This document shows, in pieces, positions 1,100 to 28,772 of a stretch of 64,000 bases of DNA (positions within the stretch are counted from its first letter, which is position 1; every line of letters starts with the position of its first letter). The DNA lies in assembly GCA_016748015.1 (NCBI GenBank), contig JAAOMT010000620.1, forward strand, positions 483,246 through 547,245. The letters are read 5' to 3'. The notes beneath the pieces were generated by a model that was given only the letters and a program-made list of their open reading frames with translations, did no database searches and had not been told where the DNA came from. This DNA comes from Geosiphon pyriformis. Lineage: Eukaryota; Glomeromycota; Glomeromycetes; Archaeosporales; Geosiphonaceae. A program made the position numbers and the translations under genes.

Positions 1100-2999
1100 G
1101 TCAAGATTGGACAGGACCGTGAGAGATTGGTCAAGACAGTCTACTGCTGGTTTGTGCCTAATTGTTGTTGGGATTTCTCCATCTCTGATTATAGTCTATA
1201 GCTTGAAGTCTGGGCTGACTGTAAGGGGGAGTTTGATAGTGGGGGATTGCTTATGTCATTGGTGGTAGTTGATAATAATTCTGGGGCAGTGGTTGAGTAT
1301 ACAGAACTTGTTGTGCATATTGGGGCAGTTGATTTTAAGGTATGGAATATTGGAATATTATGCTTTACTGATATCTTGGTTGCTGGTATTGGTTTTCTTG
1401 ATTTTGGTTCATGATCTTCTTTTTGTAGTTCTGCACAATGTGTTCAGGTTTCTGGCAGTAGTAACAGTTGTGGGGATCAGTTCTCCAGGGTTGTTGCTAT
1501 TGCTGACAGTTTTGTTGCTACAGGTATCTGTTGTTGTTATTTTCTCTCCATTGTGATAGTTGATAGGTTTCTGTAGTTCCAGCTAAGAATCCCTCAATTT
1601 TCTGAGTTAGTTTTTTACTCAATTGAGTTATCTTTGTGTTAATGTTAGAGGTTCTATTAATGGCTAAATTGATGGCTTGGGTATGGTTTGCTTCTTGTTC
1701 TATGAACTCAAAATCGTGAGCGAAAGTGATGGTGTCTTGTAAATTGGTTGGATAGCAGGGTCTTATGGATCTTAGAATACTATTTCACAATCCTTTAATA
1801 AATTGATTAAGAACTTGCACCGTGGTGTAATAGTTCTTTTTGATAGCTAATATTTGACGAAAAATTTGATTAAATCATCTGAAATAAGTAGTTACTGCTT
1901 CGTGATCTTTTTGTTTAATTATGCTGAATTGATTCTGCAATCAGATTAACGTATTGAAATCACAAAAGTATCATAGAAAGGCGAGCTTAAAGGTATTAAA
2001 GTTGGTTGGTTTTTCTACAAGGTTTTAATACCACAAGTCTGCAGTTCTGGTTAGAAAGAATGACAGTGCTTGAATAACTCTGTCATTATCCCAGTTGTTA
2101 GTGGTAATTGCTTTTTCAGCTTCCACAATTCACAAATACACGTTATCTTCTTTGCCAGAAAATTTCTCCAATTTAGTGATATCTCAGTAAGCCATGATCT
2201 AGTTAATGGATGAGGTGTCACTGATTATATTTAAAAGAATTGGTGTCTGCATATTTGAGTGTTCTCTGAGTGCTAATGCTGGTTGTTTTTCTTTGTCGCT
2301 TAAACCAATAGGTTGTAAGATAGCTGTTTTTTCCGTCAGAAGAAATGCTGATTCTACTAAATTTTGTGCTGGTGGCTGTTTCCAAGTTGATGTGTTTTCT
2401 TCTGTTTGACTGGCTGCTGGGGTAAGATTTCCAAACAGCGATTCGTATTTTTCTAGTGATTTGGTTTAACTGTGTTAATTCTAAGGGTGTGAATTTCCAG
2501 GAGTTTGTGGTGTTTCTGACTGGGTTTCCAGGGGTGAGTTGAATACAATTCTACTTTGGAATGTTTGATGGTATGATAGAGTTATTGGGAAGAGGACTCT
2601 TGGTTTCTTATTGACCATGGATTTGTCTTGGGCAGTTGTGGAATTATTGGATCCGTACTTGTATTTCTCCAGATCGGATTCTACTGGTTGTTGTACTTAA
2701 GAGAATTGTTTTGCCACATAGTGTTTAATGTCCATATCAACTATGCATAAAATTTCAGTGATTACTCAAATAGTGGTAGTTGTTGAGTACTTTAGTAAGC
2801 TTTGATGGATTTGTTTTTCAAGTTTTCCTGTGTTCATTGTGTGGCCTAACAAGCAGTTGATTTTTGTGTTGATATAGTTGCAAAAGTCACTTTCTGCAAT
2901 AGTGGTTTCTGCTGGTATTCCTAGATCTTTTTGAAAGTATTGAAATAGTGCTCTTTTATACAAAAAGTGGTCTTTTCCTATTGTTCCAATGGTCGCCAC
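1100..2999 (-). pseudogene. Retrotransposon gag, broken
   Basis: The frame opens at the ATG at 2999 (MATIGTIGKDHF), 62 bases inside the LTR. Further down a typical gag core is readable near 2175-2030: FSGKEDNVYLW, then WDNDRVIQALSFFL and TADLWY. A zinc knuckle lies near 1430-1470 as CYYCQKPEH followed by Tyr where the last Cys is expected (CX2CX4HX4Y), which is a G-to-A type loss. At least a dozen in-frame stops break the frame. Gag would form the particle that packages element RNA; this copy cannot do so. Confidence 0.7.
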
Positions 3000-3044
3000 T
3001 TTTGTGTATCTCTGGGGTGCTCTGTCTCTGTGGATTTATAACCT

Positions 3045-3058
3045 CATAGGAAGCACCA
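3045..3058 (-). other. Putative primer-binding site of the LTR element
   Basis: Two bases inside the LTR on the minus strand the sequence reads TGGTGCTTCC, the TGG that pairs with a tRNA CCA end. The same site next to the LTR at 57178 reads TGGTGCTCCC. The priming tRNA is not identified. Confidence 0.45.
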
Positions 3059-3060
3059 AA

Positions 3061-4082
3061 TGTTACAGGTAAACTTGGTGGGTATGGGAAATAGTAACGT
3101 TTAGTGCTCTCAATTATTGATAATACATCTTCTGTGTAATTCTGTTGGCTTAGTCTTGATTATCAGTTTCTGAAAGTCTATTCCTGGATGTGATTTTACC
3201 TATTGAGTTCTTTGGTTATAAGGCACAAAGTTTGTCTTTTGTCGATTGCAACATTTTCCGTAAATGTGAGCTTTTTTCTTTGAGCTAATAAGCACAGTCA
3301 TTAGGATCTGGCGTTGTCTTTTTGCTTTTTTGGTAAGCTAACAAGATAATGTTAATATTCAAAACTTAGGAAAAGTTTCCCTTTTTTACCAGGCTATCAT
3401 GAAGTTTATTCTCAGATAGTCAATTTTACTATGTTGTTGCTCCACAAAAGATAAGAAAAAAAAAAGAAAAAAAAAAGAAAAAAAAGATAAATTAGTATTG
3501 TCAATCGCCATAATCAAGAGCAATTGGTCCAAATCGTTAATTGTTTGAGACGGTTATGCTAAGAGCATCTGTCCTAAAATAAAGATATGAAACAAGAGTT
3601 AATTCATGTAAATTCCACAAAGTTTGAGAACATGAATTCATGATTCTGATTTCTTTAATAATTGGTTTATTTTAGAAGATAAAATAGGGAAAATAATAAA
3701 TGATGAATAGGTAAGGAAATTTGATTCTTGTCTAGAGATTTGTATCTATCTGTCCCTTTTTCTATCTTCTACTACTACTTGTTTTTATACATTCTTTTGG
3801 TTTTACAGAATTGCTTTCAATTGTCTCGCTATCGCTAGCTATTGCTTTGTTATTTCTGTTATTACTTTGTTTTTCTATGTTATTGCTAGTTATTCTATGT
3901 TATAACACATTATCTGATATTATTACATGTTATTCTGTATTATCCTGCATTATAACATGTTATTCTATGTTATAATGCATTATCTAATATTATTGTGCAT
4001 TATTCTGTATTATGTCACATTTTGGTCATATTTTGGTGATGTTTCTTCATAACTTTAAATCAGTTTTTCTACTTGGGTAACA
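3061..4082 (-). repeat. LTR of the left-edge Ty3-type element
   Basis: The 1022-bp repeat begins TGTTAC and ends GTAACA, a perfect 6-bp terminal inverted repeat as expected for LTRs. The same ends and most of the body recur at 54856-55780 and 57178-58113. It carries an A-rich tract near 3460-3490, in the same place as the A-rich tracts of the other two copies, and a run of TTATTC-like repeats around 3890-4020. The partner LTR is outside the window, so target duplication cannot be tested; the five bases after it are ATGCT. Confidence 0.85.
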
Positions 4083-14707: not shown

Positions 14708-14854
14708 TTTATATAAGTAGCAAACAGATTACACTTATCGGGATTGAATTTATTTAATTTAGAATCTGTAAATATGCATTGATGAGTCATAAGTTGTTTG
14801 AAATAAATTTGCAGAAATCTCTACTTTCGAAACCAAATTCCTTTTATTCACAAC
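14708..14854 (+). promoter_or_regulatory. Presumed TIM23 promoter and 5' leader
   Basis: A TATA-like TTTATATAAG lies near 14708-14717. The palindrome ATGAGTCAT at 14782-14790 contains TGAGTCA, the core bound by Gcn4/AP-1-type bZIP factors in other fungi. The stretch AATTCCTTTTATTCACAAC leads to the ATG. Use of these sites here is inference. Confidence 0.4.
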
Positions 14855-15727
14855 ATGGCCTCCTTTACTCCCGACAATCCAGCCGACCAAGAGCTTTACG
14901 ATGAACGCTTTTATCAAGAACCTAAATATACTAGCAATTATGATCCCGATGCAGCTGTCGTTAAAGACTTTTTGGGTAGCGCAAATCTCGGTTCCGCCCG
15001 CTTACGAGAAATGGCGGGACTCGGTGGTGGAGTAGAATTCTTACCGATTGAAGAACAACAAGTCACTCGAGGAGCTATTCCAAGTAGAGGAGTTCTAGAC
15101 GATCTTTGCTATGGGACAGGAACTACATATATGACCGGTACGGCCTTGAGCAAACTTGGCAATCTGTTTTTTCCCTTAGCCCGCCAGTTTGAAAATTCAA
15201 AACCTAAAAACCAAACTTTCATTCTAGGCCTATCTTTTGGTGGTGCATGGGGTTTAATTGAAGGTTTTCGTGGTCATAGTCCAAATTTTAAACTTCGTCT
15301 TAATACTATACTGAATTCCGTAACCCGACGTGGGCCCTTTGTGGGTAATTCATGTGGGGTTCTAGGTAATGAGGATATTTTATCTTATTTTTGGTTGTTT
15401 TATTTCAGAATACCATTTAATCAAATTATATGATTTTTGTATAACAGCAATGGGTTATAATTCTATTAATGGCATTATCGGTAATTTGAGAGGGCAGCGT
15501 GATATTTTAAATGAAATTGGTTCAGGGGCACTGGTAGGAGCTATTTTCAAATCAACAGGTAACCTTCATTTTGTTTAAACTTTTAATATATTAAGATTAT
15601 TATTTACTAAATGAAATTGCTTACATTAAATTTAGCTGGGATAAGAGCTGCCTCTGCCGCCTCTTTAATATGTGCAAGTGCAGCGGGAACATGGGCATTC
15701 GCAAAGCGCTACTACTTTAAATATTAA
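14855..15727 (+). CDS. TIM23: Mitochondrial import inner membrane translocase subunit Tim23
   Basis: Three exons, 14855-15365, 15448-15558 and 15636-15727, with GT-AG introns of 82 and 77 nt, give a 237-residue protein ending KRYYFKY. Tim23 forms the channel of the TIM23 complex, which moves presequence proteins across the inner mitochondrial membrane. Family marks are an N-terminal hydrophilic domain with SARLREMAGLGGGVEFL, then the Tim17/Tim22/Tim23/PRAT domain with four membrane segments: YGTGTTYMTG, GGAWGLIEG, LNSVTRRGPFVGNSCGVLA, and GSGALVGAIFKSTAGIR with AASAASLICASAAG. Splicing joins CTAG to CAATGGG and ACAG to CTGGG, restoring the conserved joins VLAMGYN and KSTAGIRAA. The length suits fungal Tim23 (about 220-240). 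GC and codon use are clearly richer than the surroundings. The gene is convergent with PEX19. Confidence 0.95.
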
Positions 15728-16261: not shown

Positions 16262-17437
16262 TTACATCAGGGTACATTTGTCTAAATCGCCAGGGGAGAA
16301 TTTTGGAACCCCTTGCTCATCTAGTTCCATATCTGGCGCCAATTCAGCGAGTATTTCAGAGGGTGGCTGACCAAAATCTTGCAACTATGAGAGAAAAAGT
16401 AGGGTAATCTATGAACTAATTACACAATTAAATCTTAATATTATATTCATACCTTTTGCATTAAATCAAGTATCTTCTTATTGTGTTGCTCGTTGTTTTC
16501 TTGATAATCCGGTGCCTCGTAGAATGCCACGATTTTTTGAACATATTCCGATTGATTTCGGAATCTTTCATACTCTTCCCGGGAAACTTTCTCCTTGTTT
16601 TCCTCGAGCCACTTCGGATACTTAATAATGAGGCCACCATTACAATGGTAACGGGATTTATGGATAATACCTTTTCTAATTAATAAAGGGAAGATACTGA
16701 AGAGATTTTAAGAAGGCTTTCACATACCCTTGTTGCTAAATCTTTTATAGGTTCATATAGAATATCCTTTGAAGTAAATTGTTCCATCATTCCGTCAAAG
16801 GCATTTTGAAATTCTGCGTTGTCTGCTAAGTTCTCCATTTGTTTCATCATTTCGGCTAGAAATTCTTCGTTGGCTTCTTCTGAGATTTCAGCCTAGTTAG
16901 ATTTAATCATCAGAAACAATAGAAATGATGAAAAGCTCTCAATTCATCGTTATTACTTACATCAACCTGATCCGAACTTTTTTGTAGTTTATTTATTGTT
17001 TGATTTATTTGTTCTTGAAAAGATTTTTTATTGCTACCCTCTTCGGTATGAAGCGACCCGTCGAAATCACTTTCTCCACTCTTCAAAAGTGCTTCAAAAG
17101 TTTCCCTTAATTCGTTGATATCTCCAAGACCATTTACAAGCGCTTCCATGTTAGCACTCAGTTGATCCACAAATTCCTCATTAGACCCATTTGAGGACTC
17201 TTGATCTGTAGAAGAACTTGGGTTGCTAGGAACGGGGGGAGTCGTAAAAGAAGTTGATTCAGAAGTTGAGCTGGATACTGTAGAAAAGTTGTCTAGAACA
17301 TCTAAAAAGCAAGAAAATTGTTAATTGATGGTTTACTATTAATGATCTCGGAGGGACTCCGAATACTAACTGTCAAGGAGGTCATCAAGGTCTTCATCGT
17401 CTTCCACAACTGTACATCTCTTATTGGGGGCTGCCAT
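16262..17437 (-). CDS. PEX19: Peroxisomal membrane protein import receptor Pex19
   Basis: Five exons in phase, 17437-17371, 17301-16961, 16892-16728, 16620-16453 and 16384-16262, encode 287 residues. Pex19 is the cytosolic chaperone and receptor that binds peroxisomal membrane proteins and docks them on Pex3. The start MAAPNKRC precedes the acidic DDEDLDDLLD segment, the family's N-terminal Pex3-binding type region. The C-terminal domain shows LAEMMKQMENLAD, the helix YEPIKDLATRYPKWL, QSEYVQKIVAFYE, LQDFGQPPSEIL and ends KCTLM. CTLM is a CaaX farnesylation box, as in yeast and human Pex19. The fourth exon start was chosen to give TRYPKWL; an upstream AG would keep the frame open and add 18 residues. 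Length fits the family (about 280-340). Confidence 0.94.
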
Positions 17438-17999: not shown

Positions 18000-20682
18000 T
18001 CATTCAGATGGTGTTAAAAAACAATGGTAGGCATCAGTTAAATTTTTTATAAACCTTTGTAATAAATCATTATTTCCATTTTCGAATGGCTGGATATTTT
18101 CATGGAAATAATCCAAAATTATGGTCAACGCAGAGAGGTTAATTTTCGCGTTGGCTTGTCTACAATAAAAAGAAAAGATATTAAATCCGTTTATCAAACT
18201 AAAACTGCATAATTTTACAAAACGGTGAAAATACAAACTGCGGTGTATTTTTTGAAACATTGCACGGCGATACACAATATTTCACCTGTTGGGGTATTCG
18301 AGATGAAATAAATTATCGGGTATTTCTATTCATTAAAAAAATGAACATCCCAAATATCTAACCACATACCATTGCGTCCATCAGAGAGAATGAGTTTGAT
18401 TTTGGCCAAAAGCCTAGGACAATGTCAACTAACATAGGATTTTCATCGAATTTCCTTTTGTGATTATCAAGATAAGCGACTATTACTTCGTTTCGAGACT
18501 CTTGGGACTTGTAATTGGTGAAGCATTCTGGAAAGGAAATTAACTCATAAGTAAATAACCAGAAGATTATAAATACAAGAGCTTATTAGTAATTCACGAA
18601 CCTCGAAGAAACACGATTATATCGGCCACTATGTTGGTCAGATTCAGGACTATAGCATCATCACGAGGACAAATTAACCAGACAAAATAATTGATAGGGG
18701 CTTCAAGCTATGGAAATTTCCATTAAGACAACAAAGATTGAACCATGCTGAGATAGGACGGCCTTCCAGGTGTAAAAATAAACTACCGCTTTGAGGCTTA
18801 CAAGATAAAGCTCATAACTGAGGTTTACGAGAAATGGTAATACTTGAAATTATTAAAGTGATTTTTTCCTACTTACTTGCTTGATATTTGGATATTTATC
18901 CTGATCAAAAATTGCCGCAATAATCCAATGCCGCCATTTTGAAAAAGATAGTAGCAATATCCATACTTGTTTACGACGCCATTCATAGTCAACTGGCAAT
19001 CCTTCCAGAAGCAATTTACGGCGAGCCAGATTAACCTCGACAAAAGATTCTGGACCAGCAATAACACTGTTAAGAATTGAAACTAAAAACTGAAAAGGTT
19101 GCCACAGATACTGGAAAAAGAATCTAAATTTAAATTAAATTTTATTGAGGACAAATTGAGCGAACATTAGTTAACTTACTAGGGTGATATCTGCTGATAT
19201 ATCAACAATTTGCTCAAGCACGGATTGTGTAAAGTATGTCACTAAACGAAGAATTCGCCAATCAGGAGTATCATCTATAAACTCGACAAAGACATCAATG
19301 CAACGAAGAAATATTCGAGAGCACATGAAAATGTGTTGAAATAATTGTCCTTGTCGAAATAAAGCTTTTATATTCGTAGGTGATGTGTATTTATCAATGG
19401 GAAATAATAGTTGACCAAATAGTGTCATGACCTATAATAAAGTTCATGAATTATTTTATAGTAGTCAACTAATTTTACAATACTAACAAATACTTACCTC
19501 ATGTTCAACAACAAAGGGAAAGCAGGCCGACAGACTTTATATCGTGGTGAATATATGTTTAGCAAAATGAAAAGTTTAATAAGATATTTTAAGCAAAAGA
19601 TACTAAAAACCTTAATATTCACACTGACCCTAGCTTCGATTCATTACTAAGTTTTTGATGAAATTTGGAATTACAAAAAACGAGATTTTCCACAAAAAGA
19701 GCCGATAGATATTCATTCGAATCCCCTTTTGTCCCAGTACGTATGATTTGATCAATCATATTTAAAGCATTCATATCCCCCAGTAAAGGAATACACTGTT
19801 CGGATAAAATTTTAATGGAATCTGCCTAAAAATCAGGAAATGGTTAATGAAATTTGGTTAAGAGAAAAAATGCCTAGAAAAACTTTACCGGGAGTAGTAT
19901 GGATTGATTCTGGAGTGCCTCCAAACATTGAGTAATAATGCTGATAGAACCCTCAGCTAAAGCCCGGTTGTTGCTGTAAGAATCGGTCAAACAAAAATCT
20001 TGAATTTTCCACACAGTCTGATTGCTCACAGGAATATTACGGCATAAAAATAGCGATCGCAATTGGCGGAAACACCAATCATTTGATCTAAACTCCGATG
20101 AGTTCCAAAAAAGCATTTATATTCTGGTTAGACATAAGAAGACGTAAAAATCCGAAGGAAGCGAAATCAACAAACTTGGGTAAAATTTTGCAGGATTCAA
20201 TGGAAAAATTATTAAAGATCTTGGAAAATTCGACTAGGCATTTAACAATCAATTGGGAACTTGTTGGATGAAGGATAAAAATTCTGTTTCGCTAAATTTT
20301 TGATTTTGATTTTAGAAAAATAGGAAATGGTATAAACGTCATAATATAGATTGAATATCGAAATGACAAAGTACCGCTAACTCTGACAATAATCGGGCAC
20401 CTTTGGGAAACATCCTTGCACATTCCTGAGCACTAGTACAGATTGAGAGTTGCTAAGGGATGTTTAATGAAATTAGTGAGCAAAATAAAGGTAACTTTTT
20501 TCAGCTCGGGAGTAAAGAGTTTTGAAACTTACCTCGTGAAACTCATCTAAGAAGGAATTCACCTTATCAAAATTTTGTATTATATCTACGATTTCGGCGG
20601 TCTTTTCGTCTTTAGACCTTTTTGGGGCTGTTGCTTTAACCCGCCACTTTGAGACCAGTTCTATGACCCCATCCCATTCCAT
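18000..20682 (-). CDS. FANCC: Fanconi anaemia group C (FANCC)-like protein
   Basis: I resolve twelve exons, all in phase: 20682-20533, 20452-20375, 20291-20176, 20087-19889, 19825-19629, 19534-19498, 19431-19180, 19110-18877, 18707-18602, 18527-18370, 18285-18239 and 18159-18000, giving 577 residues (human FANCC has 558). FANCC is an all-helical subunit of the Fanconi core complex that monoubiquitinates FANCD2-FANCI in DNA crosslink repair. Resemblance to FANCC as I remember it runs colinearly: ARMFPKGARLLSELARNRIFIL near residue 62, KILSEQCIPLLGDMNALNMI near 183, QVWILLLSFSKWRHWI near 400, and INYFVWLICPRDD near 431, where the human protein has similar FP..GQLLAKA, SRVCVPL, SWFLFIHFGGWAEM and LLWLLAFYYGPRD runs. 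Two donors are GTTTGT and one GTTTGT-containing intron spans a frame change, so exons 3/4 and 11/12 are the least certain. I first considered MMS22-like. Confidence 0.72.
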
Positions 20683-21945: not shown

Positions 21946-22914
21946 TTAGCTAAATACTCTTCCAACACCACTTGAAAATAGCTTTCCTACCCATCCGACA
22001 TTCTGTGATGCAAAACCAGTGGCCCATTTTCGTTTTGCGTCCTTATCACATTGAGTGTAACCTAAGACGTTGGCGAAGTTCAAGGTCAAGGCAACTGCAA
22101 CTATCAATAACCATTTTGTGTCAAACCGAATGAGTGAAAGAAATCCACAGATGGCCCATAGTACGAAAGTTACATATAATGAAATCCAAAATATTCGTGA
22201 ATCTGTGGGATTCACTGGACGTGATGGCTTGGAAAAGACAAAGAAATCCTCATTAGAATGATAAATGAAGCATGAAAACAAAAAATAACGGTCATAATTT
22301 AAACTCACATCACGACTCTCAAACATCCAAACATTTTTACCGTCTTCTTGAATATCATTCCACCACCTCAATCCCACCAATAATCGTCCAGTAACGTTTT
22401 TAACTGTCCAAAAGTCAAAGGATAATAATAATACGCATGTGATAAAAATGAAAGGGAAATTACTAATGAAGAGACTCCCAAACAAATATACTAATAGTGC
22501 AGCACTACGAAAAAATAGATGAAACCCTAGGGCCACGGGATGGCTGAATCAAAAAGCTTGTTAGCCGAGCCAAGAAAAGCAGACTTCCAAAAAAAACCTC
22601 CAAGAGCTTTAGTTTCAGGAAACAAAAACCTAGACTGTTTCCAGATGCTTTGATTACTATTACTTTGAGTATCACCAAAGCTACTGTTTGTGCCTCCTCC
22701 AGAGGGTGCTTCAATGTCACCTTCAATCCTAGCGAAGGGTCCAGCTTGTGAGAGAAGATTTGCTGTAGATTCCTATCATGTTGTAGTTTATTTAGCATCC
22801 AATAGAAGAGTCTAATGAATAAAGATAAAAATATATAATACACGCCATTTCACCCTCAGCTTTAGGTGCCTCAACGTTTACGGTTGTTGAAAAAGTTTGT
22901 TCTAGTTTAGACAT
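21946..22914 (-). CDS. TVP23: Golgi membrane protein Tvp23 (TVP23/FAM18 family)
   Basis: Four exons, 22914-22854, 22762-22630, 22543-22309 and 22227-21946, give 236 residues. Tvp23 proteins are four-span membrane proteins of the late Golgi involved in vesicle traffic. Splicing AG to CCATCCC makes SSHPVALGFHLFFRSAAL, the conserved entry into the first span. Then come YLFGSLFISNFPFIFITCVLLL, WTVKNVTGRLLVGLRWWN with the family's NVTGRLLVGLRWW motif, WMFESRD, and RIFWISLYVTFVLWAICGFLSL followed by the last span WLLIVAVALTLNFANVLGY. The basic-aromatic tail ends SGVGRVFS. The first intron is uncertain: I use GTGAAA at 22853 with the acceptor before 22762; a phase-0 junction at the GATAG acceptor near 22770 is possible. 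The first ~60 residues are low-complexity. Confidence 0.9.
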
Positions 22915-26482: not shown

Positions 26483-28772
26483 TTTTATTTAACGCATTTA
26501 ACGAGTGTAGCCCAATCGCTATCTAGTACATAAAACCAAACTAAGAGGCTCAAACTAAACGCGACTCACGCACTTTCTACATGTAACTAGCCATTCAGGC
26601 CAGACAAGGCAACACTACACATCTATAACTACCCGCACACTGCCACTCAGACCAGAAAAGAAACAAAAAGGCTTCCGACGACCAAAGCTAACAGCAAAAG
26701 AATTGGCCAAACCAAGCAATCTCACAACACCGTCAGACAAAACCGAAGACATACCACAAGGGAGCCCAGAAACAACACCAACATCACAGACCAGACCAGT
26801 CTTCTCCATCACCACCCGGTGGCTGGCTCTAGCTAACCATACCTTAGCATGATGTAGACCAACAACAAATCTGACATAATCAACAATCCTAGCAGTGGCC
26901 ACCTTTTTATCCTCAAAAACATCGCAAGCCTCCTCATACCACTCCTCCAGCACAAACCCTTTGCACACCAAAGTGTACAGCCCAACATCAATGGAACATT
27001 GAGACAAAACCCACAACACAGCAGAAGCAGAGGAACCACCAGCCAAAGCTGATCAATGAGCAGAAGCCTCCGCCAAAATCTTACCACGAATGCCAGACTC
27101 ATGAACACAAGTAAAAACGTGGTCAGAGAACTCCACCTCACTGCAAAACAAACACAACACACTAGGGTAACATTTATCATACAACCTCTTCCTAATGGCC
27201 ACCGGCAACCTTCTGTGCACAGCCTTCATAACATAAGTGCAAAGCGATGAGGATGCACGGCTAGTGAACCCAGCAAGCATATGAGAATCAGGATGCCACA
27301 CCTTTGCCGTGACAACCCAGTCTATGCAACCAATCATCGCATCCGGAACTACATCACAACCAGGCCCAGCTTCCCAACGAGCACAACGAATTGATCGAAA
27401 AATATTTCTGACAAAATGACGGGCATTACCAGAAACAGCGACACCCTCAGCAACCAAAAAATGTTCACGCACATTGGCACAAAGAAAAAAGGGAGACCCA
27501 GAGGCAGTTCCAGCAGCCAAGTCAGCTCTCACATTACCAGGAATCCCAGAGTGTCCTTTTACCTTAACCCAACTCACACTAAGATTCTTATTCCTGACCA
27601 AATTGAAAATATGACGCCTTTCCAGCCAGCATTGATTACGGAAATCAGAAGCAACCAAAGACATCTCAGACACACATGTGTCAATGGCAGTCTGGCTGTC
27701 AAGACACAACACCACAGTACTTGAAGAAGGAACACACTCCAAAGCCAAAGCAACAGCCTGTAACTCGGCCATAGTAGATGACAAAAGACCACGAACAGCA
27801 ACACCAATACTCATATCCAAGACCGAAAAGTATGCAGCAGCACCACAGGTGACCTCAGCAGAGCCTGCATTCCTCAAAGACCCATCCGTGAAAACTTCAA
27901 AAGAGCCCTACCAAATGTCATGCAATCCATCTTTAACCGCAGAAAACTCCCCAGACCTCAAAATGTCCAAACCAAGCTTTTCTGCTGAGCCAACAGAACC
28001 AGAAAATGAGTAACCCTGACCTTTCAAAAACTCAGAAGAAACCATGAACCAGTGAGGCACAAGGCCATGTGGATCCAACCTCTTCCAACGACGAAAAGTT
28101 TTCCAATCCAACAAAACACTTTTCTTATCAAAAAGCCGATCACCAAAAGCAACACCAAAACGTTTAAGAGATTTGACCGAATTAAAATACAGAGACTTTC
28201 CAAGAACAGAGGACAACGGGAACCGACCAGGACTACGAAATGCAGTGGGGAGGTTGTTCACCAAAGTAAGCTCATTGCCCAGAAAGATCTTCACCATCCC
28301 AGCCAAAAAATTGTTCACCAGACTAACACGCAACCTGACCAGAAACTGCAAAGGATCTAAAGGAGCCCAACCAAGAATCTGTAGGTCTAAAAACCTATGT
28401 CTAAACAAACGCCCAAGAATGCCAAAAGCATTAAAGAATGCCATCAAAGCAGCAACCTTCCCTTCAGACTGCATCTGTTCAAAAGGCTTTAAGCCATACA
28501 ATGAGGGATGATGCAAAGCAGTGTCAAGAAAATCACAGGGGAGACAGGCCTTGGACCTAAGACCCTTTCTAACCAAGACATCCCACTTGCGACAAACATT
28601 AGATGAGACAAAACTGAACTAAGTACGATAGCTAACAATAGGCTGCAAAACAGCCGACATCAGATACGAGAATTGTTTGTCTGTAATAGCCTTCTTAAGC
28701 ACAACATTGACGAAGAAACGTACATCCACATGAGCCTTGGCAACACTTAGCTTGGAGAGCCCCTCAGTCGAC
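26483..28772 (-). mobile_element. LINE A, 5'-truncated insertion
   Basis: Flanked by a perfect 13-bp target duplication, AAATTATATATTT at 26470-26482 and 28773-28785. On the minus strand the insert starts inside the reverse transcriptase domain (LSTEGLSKLS) and ends with the LINE 3' tail CTCGTTAAATGCGTTAAATAAAA. 5' truncation with an intact 3' end is the hallmark of target-primed reverse transcription. It belongs to the same subfamily as LINE D by RNase H and 3' end sequence. Its GC content is far above the flanks and few codons are damaged, so it is one of the younger insertions. Confidence 0.93.
26615..28770 (-). pseudogene. LINE A ORF2 C-terminal part (RT thumb, RNase H, zinc motif)
   Basis: The frame covers the end of the reverse transcriptase (AITDKQFSYLMSAVLQP), a linker with ALHHPSLYGLKPFEQ and RWKRLDPHGLVPHWF, then RNase H and the C-terminal Cys/His region. 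RNase H keeps its acidic set: VFTDGS near 27873, MAELQAVALALEC near 27770, LDSQTAID near 27710, and VKGHSGIPGNVRADLAAG near 27550. The zinc motif is CLFC...DHVFTC near 27160-27100. Breaks include a TAG in RTQFSF near 28620 (CAG expected), a TAG just before RNase H near 27908 and a frame change near 27050. The end is RVVIDV then stop at 26615. Confidence 0.85.

Follow-up and report, generated by a model that had tools for sequence, protein, structure and literature searches.

A very divergent, probable FANCC orthologue in the fungus Geosiphon pyriformis

The window, which is the whole stretch of 64,000 nucleotides that was analysed, contains a gene that very probably encodes a true but very divergent FANCC orthologue, which would act in the monoubiquitination of FANCD2 and FANCI. 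This reading is based on an exon chain that remains in phase, on matches to the Pfam family Fanconi_C, on the alignment with human FANCC, on the presence of FANCL, FANCI and FANCD2 in the same genome, and on a report of FANCC in Rhizopus. The protein adds a member to a known family and does not represent a new kind of protein. Within the Fanconi core ligase, FANCC, FANCE and FANCF make up the module that recognizes the substrate, and this module contacts FANCL (PMC10085685).

The minus strand carries the gene, which runs from an ATG at 20682 to a TGA at 18002-18000. A previous reading made from the sequence only had placed the gene correctly, but left the strand unstated. In the preferred exon-chain model, 12 exons, as had been proposed, are joined in phase across 11 GT-AG introns of 44-169 nt, but the product consists of 597 residues and not 577. 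The GC content is 37% in the exons compared to 28% in the introns. The gene is present in one copy in the 124.7 Mb assembly, and no related sequences were found in GTDB and IMG/VR contigs. The exons are:

20533..20682, minus strand: exon 1, with the start codon at 20682-20680; within the Fanconi_C match of residues 13-98
20375..20452, minus strand: exon 2, with the motif FPKGARLL; Fanconi_C match of residues 13-98
20176..20291, minus strand: exon 3, placed by the exon chain and the N-terminal Fanconi_C fragment match
19889..20087, minus strand: exon 4, the end of which falls within the Fanconi_C match of residues 168-334
19629..19825, minus strand: exon 5, with the motif EQCIPLL; Fanconi_C match of residues 168-334
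19498..19534, minus strand: exon 6 (37 nt), spanned by the Pfam Fanconi_C alignment
19180..19431, minus strand: exon 7, with YFTQSVLEQI opposite human VFTQCFVEAL; Fanconi_C match of residues 168-334
18877..19110, minus strand: exon 8, placed by the motif VWILLLSFSKW only
18602..18707, minus strand: exon 9, placed by the motif FVWLICPRDD only
18370..18527, minus strand: exon 10, for which phase and splice sites are the sole evidence and the 3' end is uncertain
18219..18325, minus strand: exon 11, the least certain exon, preceded by a 44-nt intron
18000..18159, minus strand: exon 12, with the stop codon TGA at 18002-18000

Fragments of the protein were scanned against 24,736 Pfam models. Fanconi_C (PF02106) is a profile of 560 positions with a curated cut-off of 25 bits. 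Fragment 1-115 matches it with an E-value of 0.0047, residues 13-98 of the protein being aligned to profile positions 15-97, and the N-terminal match is repeated with fragment 1-104 (E 0.0041). Fragment 155-343 matches with an E-value of 1.8e-4 and a score of 20.8 bits (residues 168-334 on profile positions 167-330). The two matches do not overlap, are in register with the profile and cross splice junctions, and Fanconi_C is the sole family reported for each of the fragments 1-115 and 155-343. Neither match reaches the curated cut-off, nor does the whole protein. Reversed, fully shuffled or hydrophobicity-class-shuffled fragments gave no match to PF02106. The shuffled controls reach E-values of about 0.013-0.04 with unrelated families, so that the fragment E-values are somewhat generous; they also bear a multiple-testing cost because about two dozen sequences were tried, a cost that is small for a family named beforehand among 24,736. 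Two separate in-register matches that the controls do not reproduce appear to be more than chance.

The whole 597-residue protein gave no hmmscan match in Pfam or NCBIfam. Longer fragments that contain the matching segments gave no Pfam match either, which is probably an effect of the HMMER speed filters. A six-frame search of the genome with the Fanconi_C profile found nothing at E-values of up to 10, and therefore such an exon-by-exon search is too weak.

The human FANCC sequence used for direct comparison is fully identical to chain C of PDB entry 7kzp over 496 residues. Its global alignment with the fungal protein scores higher than all 400 class-preserving shuffles with both the PAM250 and Gonnet matrices (Z 4.7-6.0); with BLOSUM the alignment is weak compared to shuffles (Z about 2). 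Rotation controls were uninformative because free end gaps keep much of the true alignment, and hhalign was without power when a single sequence was compared to the single human sequence. A phmmer search of PDB with the whole protein found neither human FANCC nor any other match.

The four motifs on which the sequence-only reading had relied (FPKGARLL, EQCIPLL, VWILLLSFSKWRHWI and FVWLICPRDD) are all present in the product and follow the order of human FANCC (7kzp chain C). The positions colinear with the human protein are FP..G.LL, C.PL, FTQ, W..L..F..W and W...PRD. The aligned pairs, fungal sequence first, are FPKGARLL and FPTIGQLL, CIPLL and CVPLI, YFTQSVLEQI and VFTQCFVEAL, VWILLLSFSKW and SWFLFIHFGGW, and WLIC-PRDD and WLLAFYYGPRDG. 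Like human FANCC, the protein is predicted to be helical and is similar in length, with 597 residues compared to 558, a closeness also noted earlier for the product of 577. It has two in-register profile matches within residues 13-334, both under the curated cut-off, and shares colinear motifs up to the PRD region. The C-terminal 263 residues alone do not score above shuffles. The sequence signal is confined to the first 334 residues, whereas the likeness of the C-terminal 263 to the human protein consists of short colinear motifs only. Overall identity is very low, below the detection level of phmmer or whole-protein hmmscan. The identification as FANCC is supported by two Fanconi_C matches, with none better, but both are below the cut-off and the C-terminal half is not significant on its own.

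A genome that carries FANCC should also have FANCL and the FANCD2-FANCI pair, and all three were found, with the acceptor lysine kept. The FANCL_C model (the Pfam C-terminal domain) matches with an E-value of 9.5e-13, and segments of the central domain and of the RING match solved FANCL with E-values of 1e-14 and 2.7e-19, respectively. FANCD2 was found with an E-value of 7.8e-46 and FANCI with 9.8e-15. Two of these genes were located:

G000:C252:198428-198684: FANCL gene, whose central-domain and RING exons closely resemble those of animal FANCL
G000:C270:372568-377415: FANCD2 gene, in which the acceptor lysine is conserved (VVQKQL) and the C-terminal tail is acidic

The FANCD2 segment VVQKQLTSSDEKYKQIGVIGAL aligns to a 22-residue human segment. 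As the human part of the alignment begins at residue 553 of the 1451-residue chain, the first lysine of the fungal segment corresponds to human position 561. The lysine at this position, K561 in human FANCD2, is the known ubiquitin acceptor and is kept in the fungal protein.

The FANCC-like protein would be an all-helical scaffold, as is human FANCC, and would work together with FANCE and FANCF. As the module of the core ligase that recognizes the substrate, the three proteins would bring FANCI-FANCD2 to the RING ligase FANCL, and FANCL would then monoubiquitinate the acceptor lysine of FANCD2 during crosslink repair. The protein may also limit meiotic crossovers, as in Arabidopsis. We infer that it is expressed, that it binds FANCE, FANCF and FANCL, and that it functions in this manner.

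Among the partners for which a search had been proposed, FANCL, FANCD2 and FANCI were found, but FANCE and FANCF were not detected by an insensitive profile search. Pfam profile searches of the genome for FANCE, FANCF, FANCA and FAAP100 found nothing. This blank, together with the role of Arabidopsis FANCC-FANCE-FANCF in limiting meiotic crossovers (PMC10085685), favors an alternative that we consider unlikely, in which the protein is a FANCC homologue without an animal-type use in the ligase and, lacking FANCE and FANCF, has another role, for instance in meiosis. The absence of these partners is not supported, however, because a search of the same type missed the FANCC-like gene itself, and the blanks are not evidence of absence. 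Furthermore, the genome retains FANCL and FANCI as well as FANCD2, which still has its acceptor lysine.

The structure of the protein was predicted with AlphaFold from the single sequence. The model is almost all helix, which agrees with the expected helical character, but it has a mean pLDDT of 40 and is too poor to interpret. No confident structure was obtained because the model was calculated from one sequence, with no homologue alignment. Human FANCC is absent among the 50 Foldseek matches listed for this model, which is too poor for this result to be interpreted; the list contains generic solenoids, PPR10 and importins among them, all with E-values of 0.001 or higher. It could be argued from the almost all-helical prediction, from this list of solenoids, obtained with a poor model, and from the C-terminal half, which against human FANCC does not rise above shuffles, that the protein belongs to another α-solenoid family (MMS22-like, HEAT or PPR-type) and that its likeness to FANCC is one of helical composition. 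This is very unlikely, because Fanconi_C was found twice and in register, class-preserving shuffles, which retain the helical pattern, gave no match to PF02106, and the fragments had no meaningful match to any other family, MMS22-like included; the other families that did appear had E-values of 0.037 or worse. A better match to another helical family, of which MMS22-like was the example, had been named in advance as the outcome that would speak against FANCC; none was reported in the Pfam scans, and no MMS22-like model appeared in those of the whole protein or of the fragments.

The 3' splice sites of the gene (exons 10-12) are the least certain part of the model because two open single-intron alternatives, in intron 10 or in intron 11 and each with weaker splice sites, give a product of 577 residues. 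The C-terminal exon chain is a prediction. A wrong exon chain, or a decaying pseudogene from which no full protein is made, is very unlikely: intron 10 (44 nt) and the joins of exons 10-12 are weakly supported and several single-intron alternatives keep an open frame, but there are 12 open in-phase exons with GT-AG borders, the GC content differs between exons and introns, and the Pfam matches pass through several splice junctions.

The neighbors of the FANCC-like gene are ordinary genes, and elements with reverse transcriptase are farther away. The neighboring genes are:

16910-17320, minus strand: Pex19 exon (peroxisome import), E 6.9e-7; close to the FANCC-like gene on its downstream side and in the same orientation
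14807-15433, plus strand: gene of the Tim17/Tim22/Tim23 family, E 2.4e-10; on the Pex19 side
21946-22548, minus strand: TVP23-like membrane protein with DUF846 (E 1.4e-51); on the upstream side of the FANCC-like gene

Several open frames with non-LTR-type reverse transcriptase and RNase H are found on both strands between positions 26600 and 53100 of the window, where they lie in blocks of higher GC content amid very AT-rich DNA. At locus L024, positions 1300-3154 contain an rDNA copy with 5.8S and SSU; the assembly gave only a single strong match to 5.8S. This copy seems to have many A/T substitutions compared to arbuscular mycorrhizal SSU sequences. A nuclear rDNA segment matches the arbuscular mycorrhizal primer AML2 with one mismatch, a hint of Glomeromycotina, although the copy appears diverged.

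Published statements on FANCC in fungi conflict. Singh et al. (2023) reported FANCE and FANCC in Rhizopus azygosporus, found by remote homology with identities of 21% and 15% (PMC10085685), whereas a survey of 183 proteomes concluded that all fungi lack FANCC (Barua et al. 2024; PMC11061109). The present gene agrees with the former and contradicts the latter, and suggests that the reported absence of FANCC from fungi reflects limited search sensitivity. The Rhizopus protein (RCH79564.1), set beside the present one by description, is likewise from an early-diverging fungus and was recognized by remote homology only, at 15% identity to human FANCC. Arabidopsis FANCC (At3g60310), found by HHpred with an identity of 16%, is a similarly divergent, non-animal member of the family, and Arabidopsis has FANCE and FANCF as well (PMC10085685). 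Its binding to FANCE-FANCF and its anti-crossover role have been shown experimentally, whereas for the fungal protein such binding is a prediction and such a role a possibility. The earlier statement that FANCC is best described in animals is right in general, but plants and at least one fungus had already been reported (PMC10085685). The novelty in fungi is reduced in the same way: the finding conflicts with Barua et al. 2024 (PMC11061109), but FANCC of Rhizopus azygosporus was reported earlier.

A well-delimited gene, accompanied by FANCL, FANCI and FANCD2, bears on this conflict and supports the view that the substrate-recognition module has been kept in lineages other than animals and plants. 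The gene can serve as a query in the search for FANCC among further early-diverging fungi, of which some are genetically tractable. Tentatively, and with more doubt than confidence, a reduced Fanconi ligase can be envisaged, in which FANCL and FANCC, the latter together with FANCE and/or FANCF as hidden partners, would act on FANCI-FANCD2 without FANCA-FANCG and FANCB-FAAP100. If such a ligase exists, the FANCC-FANCE-FANCF module would be ancestral and would have persisted better than the other modules.
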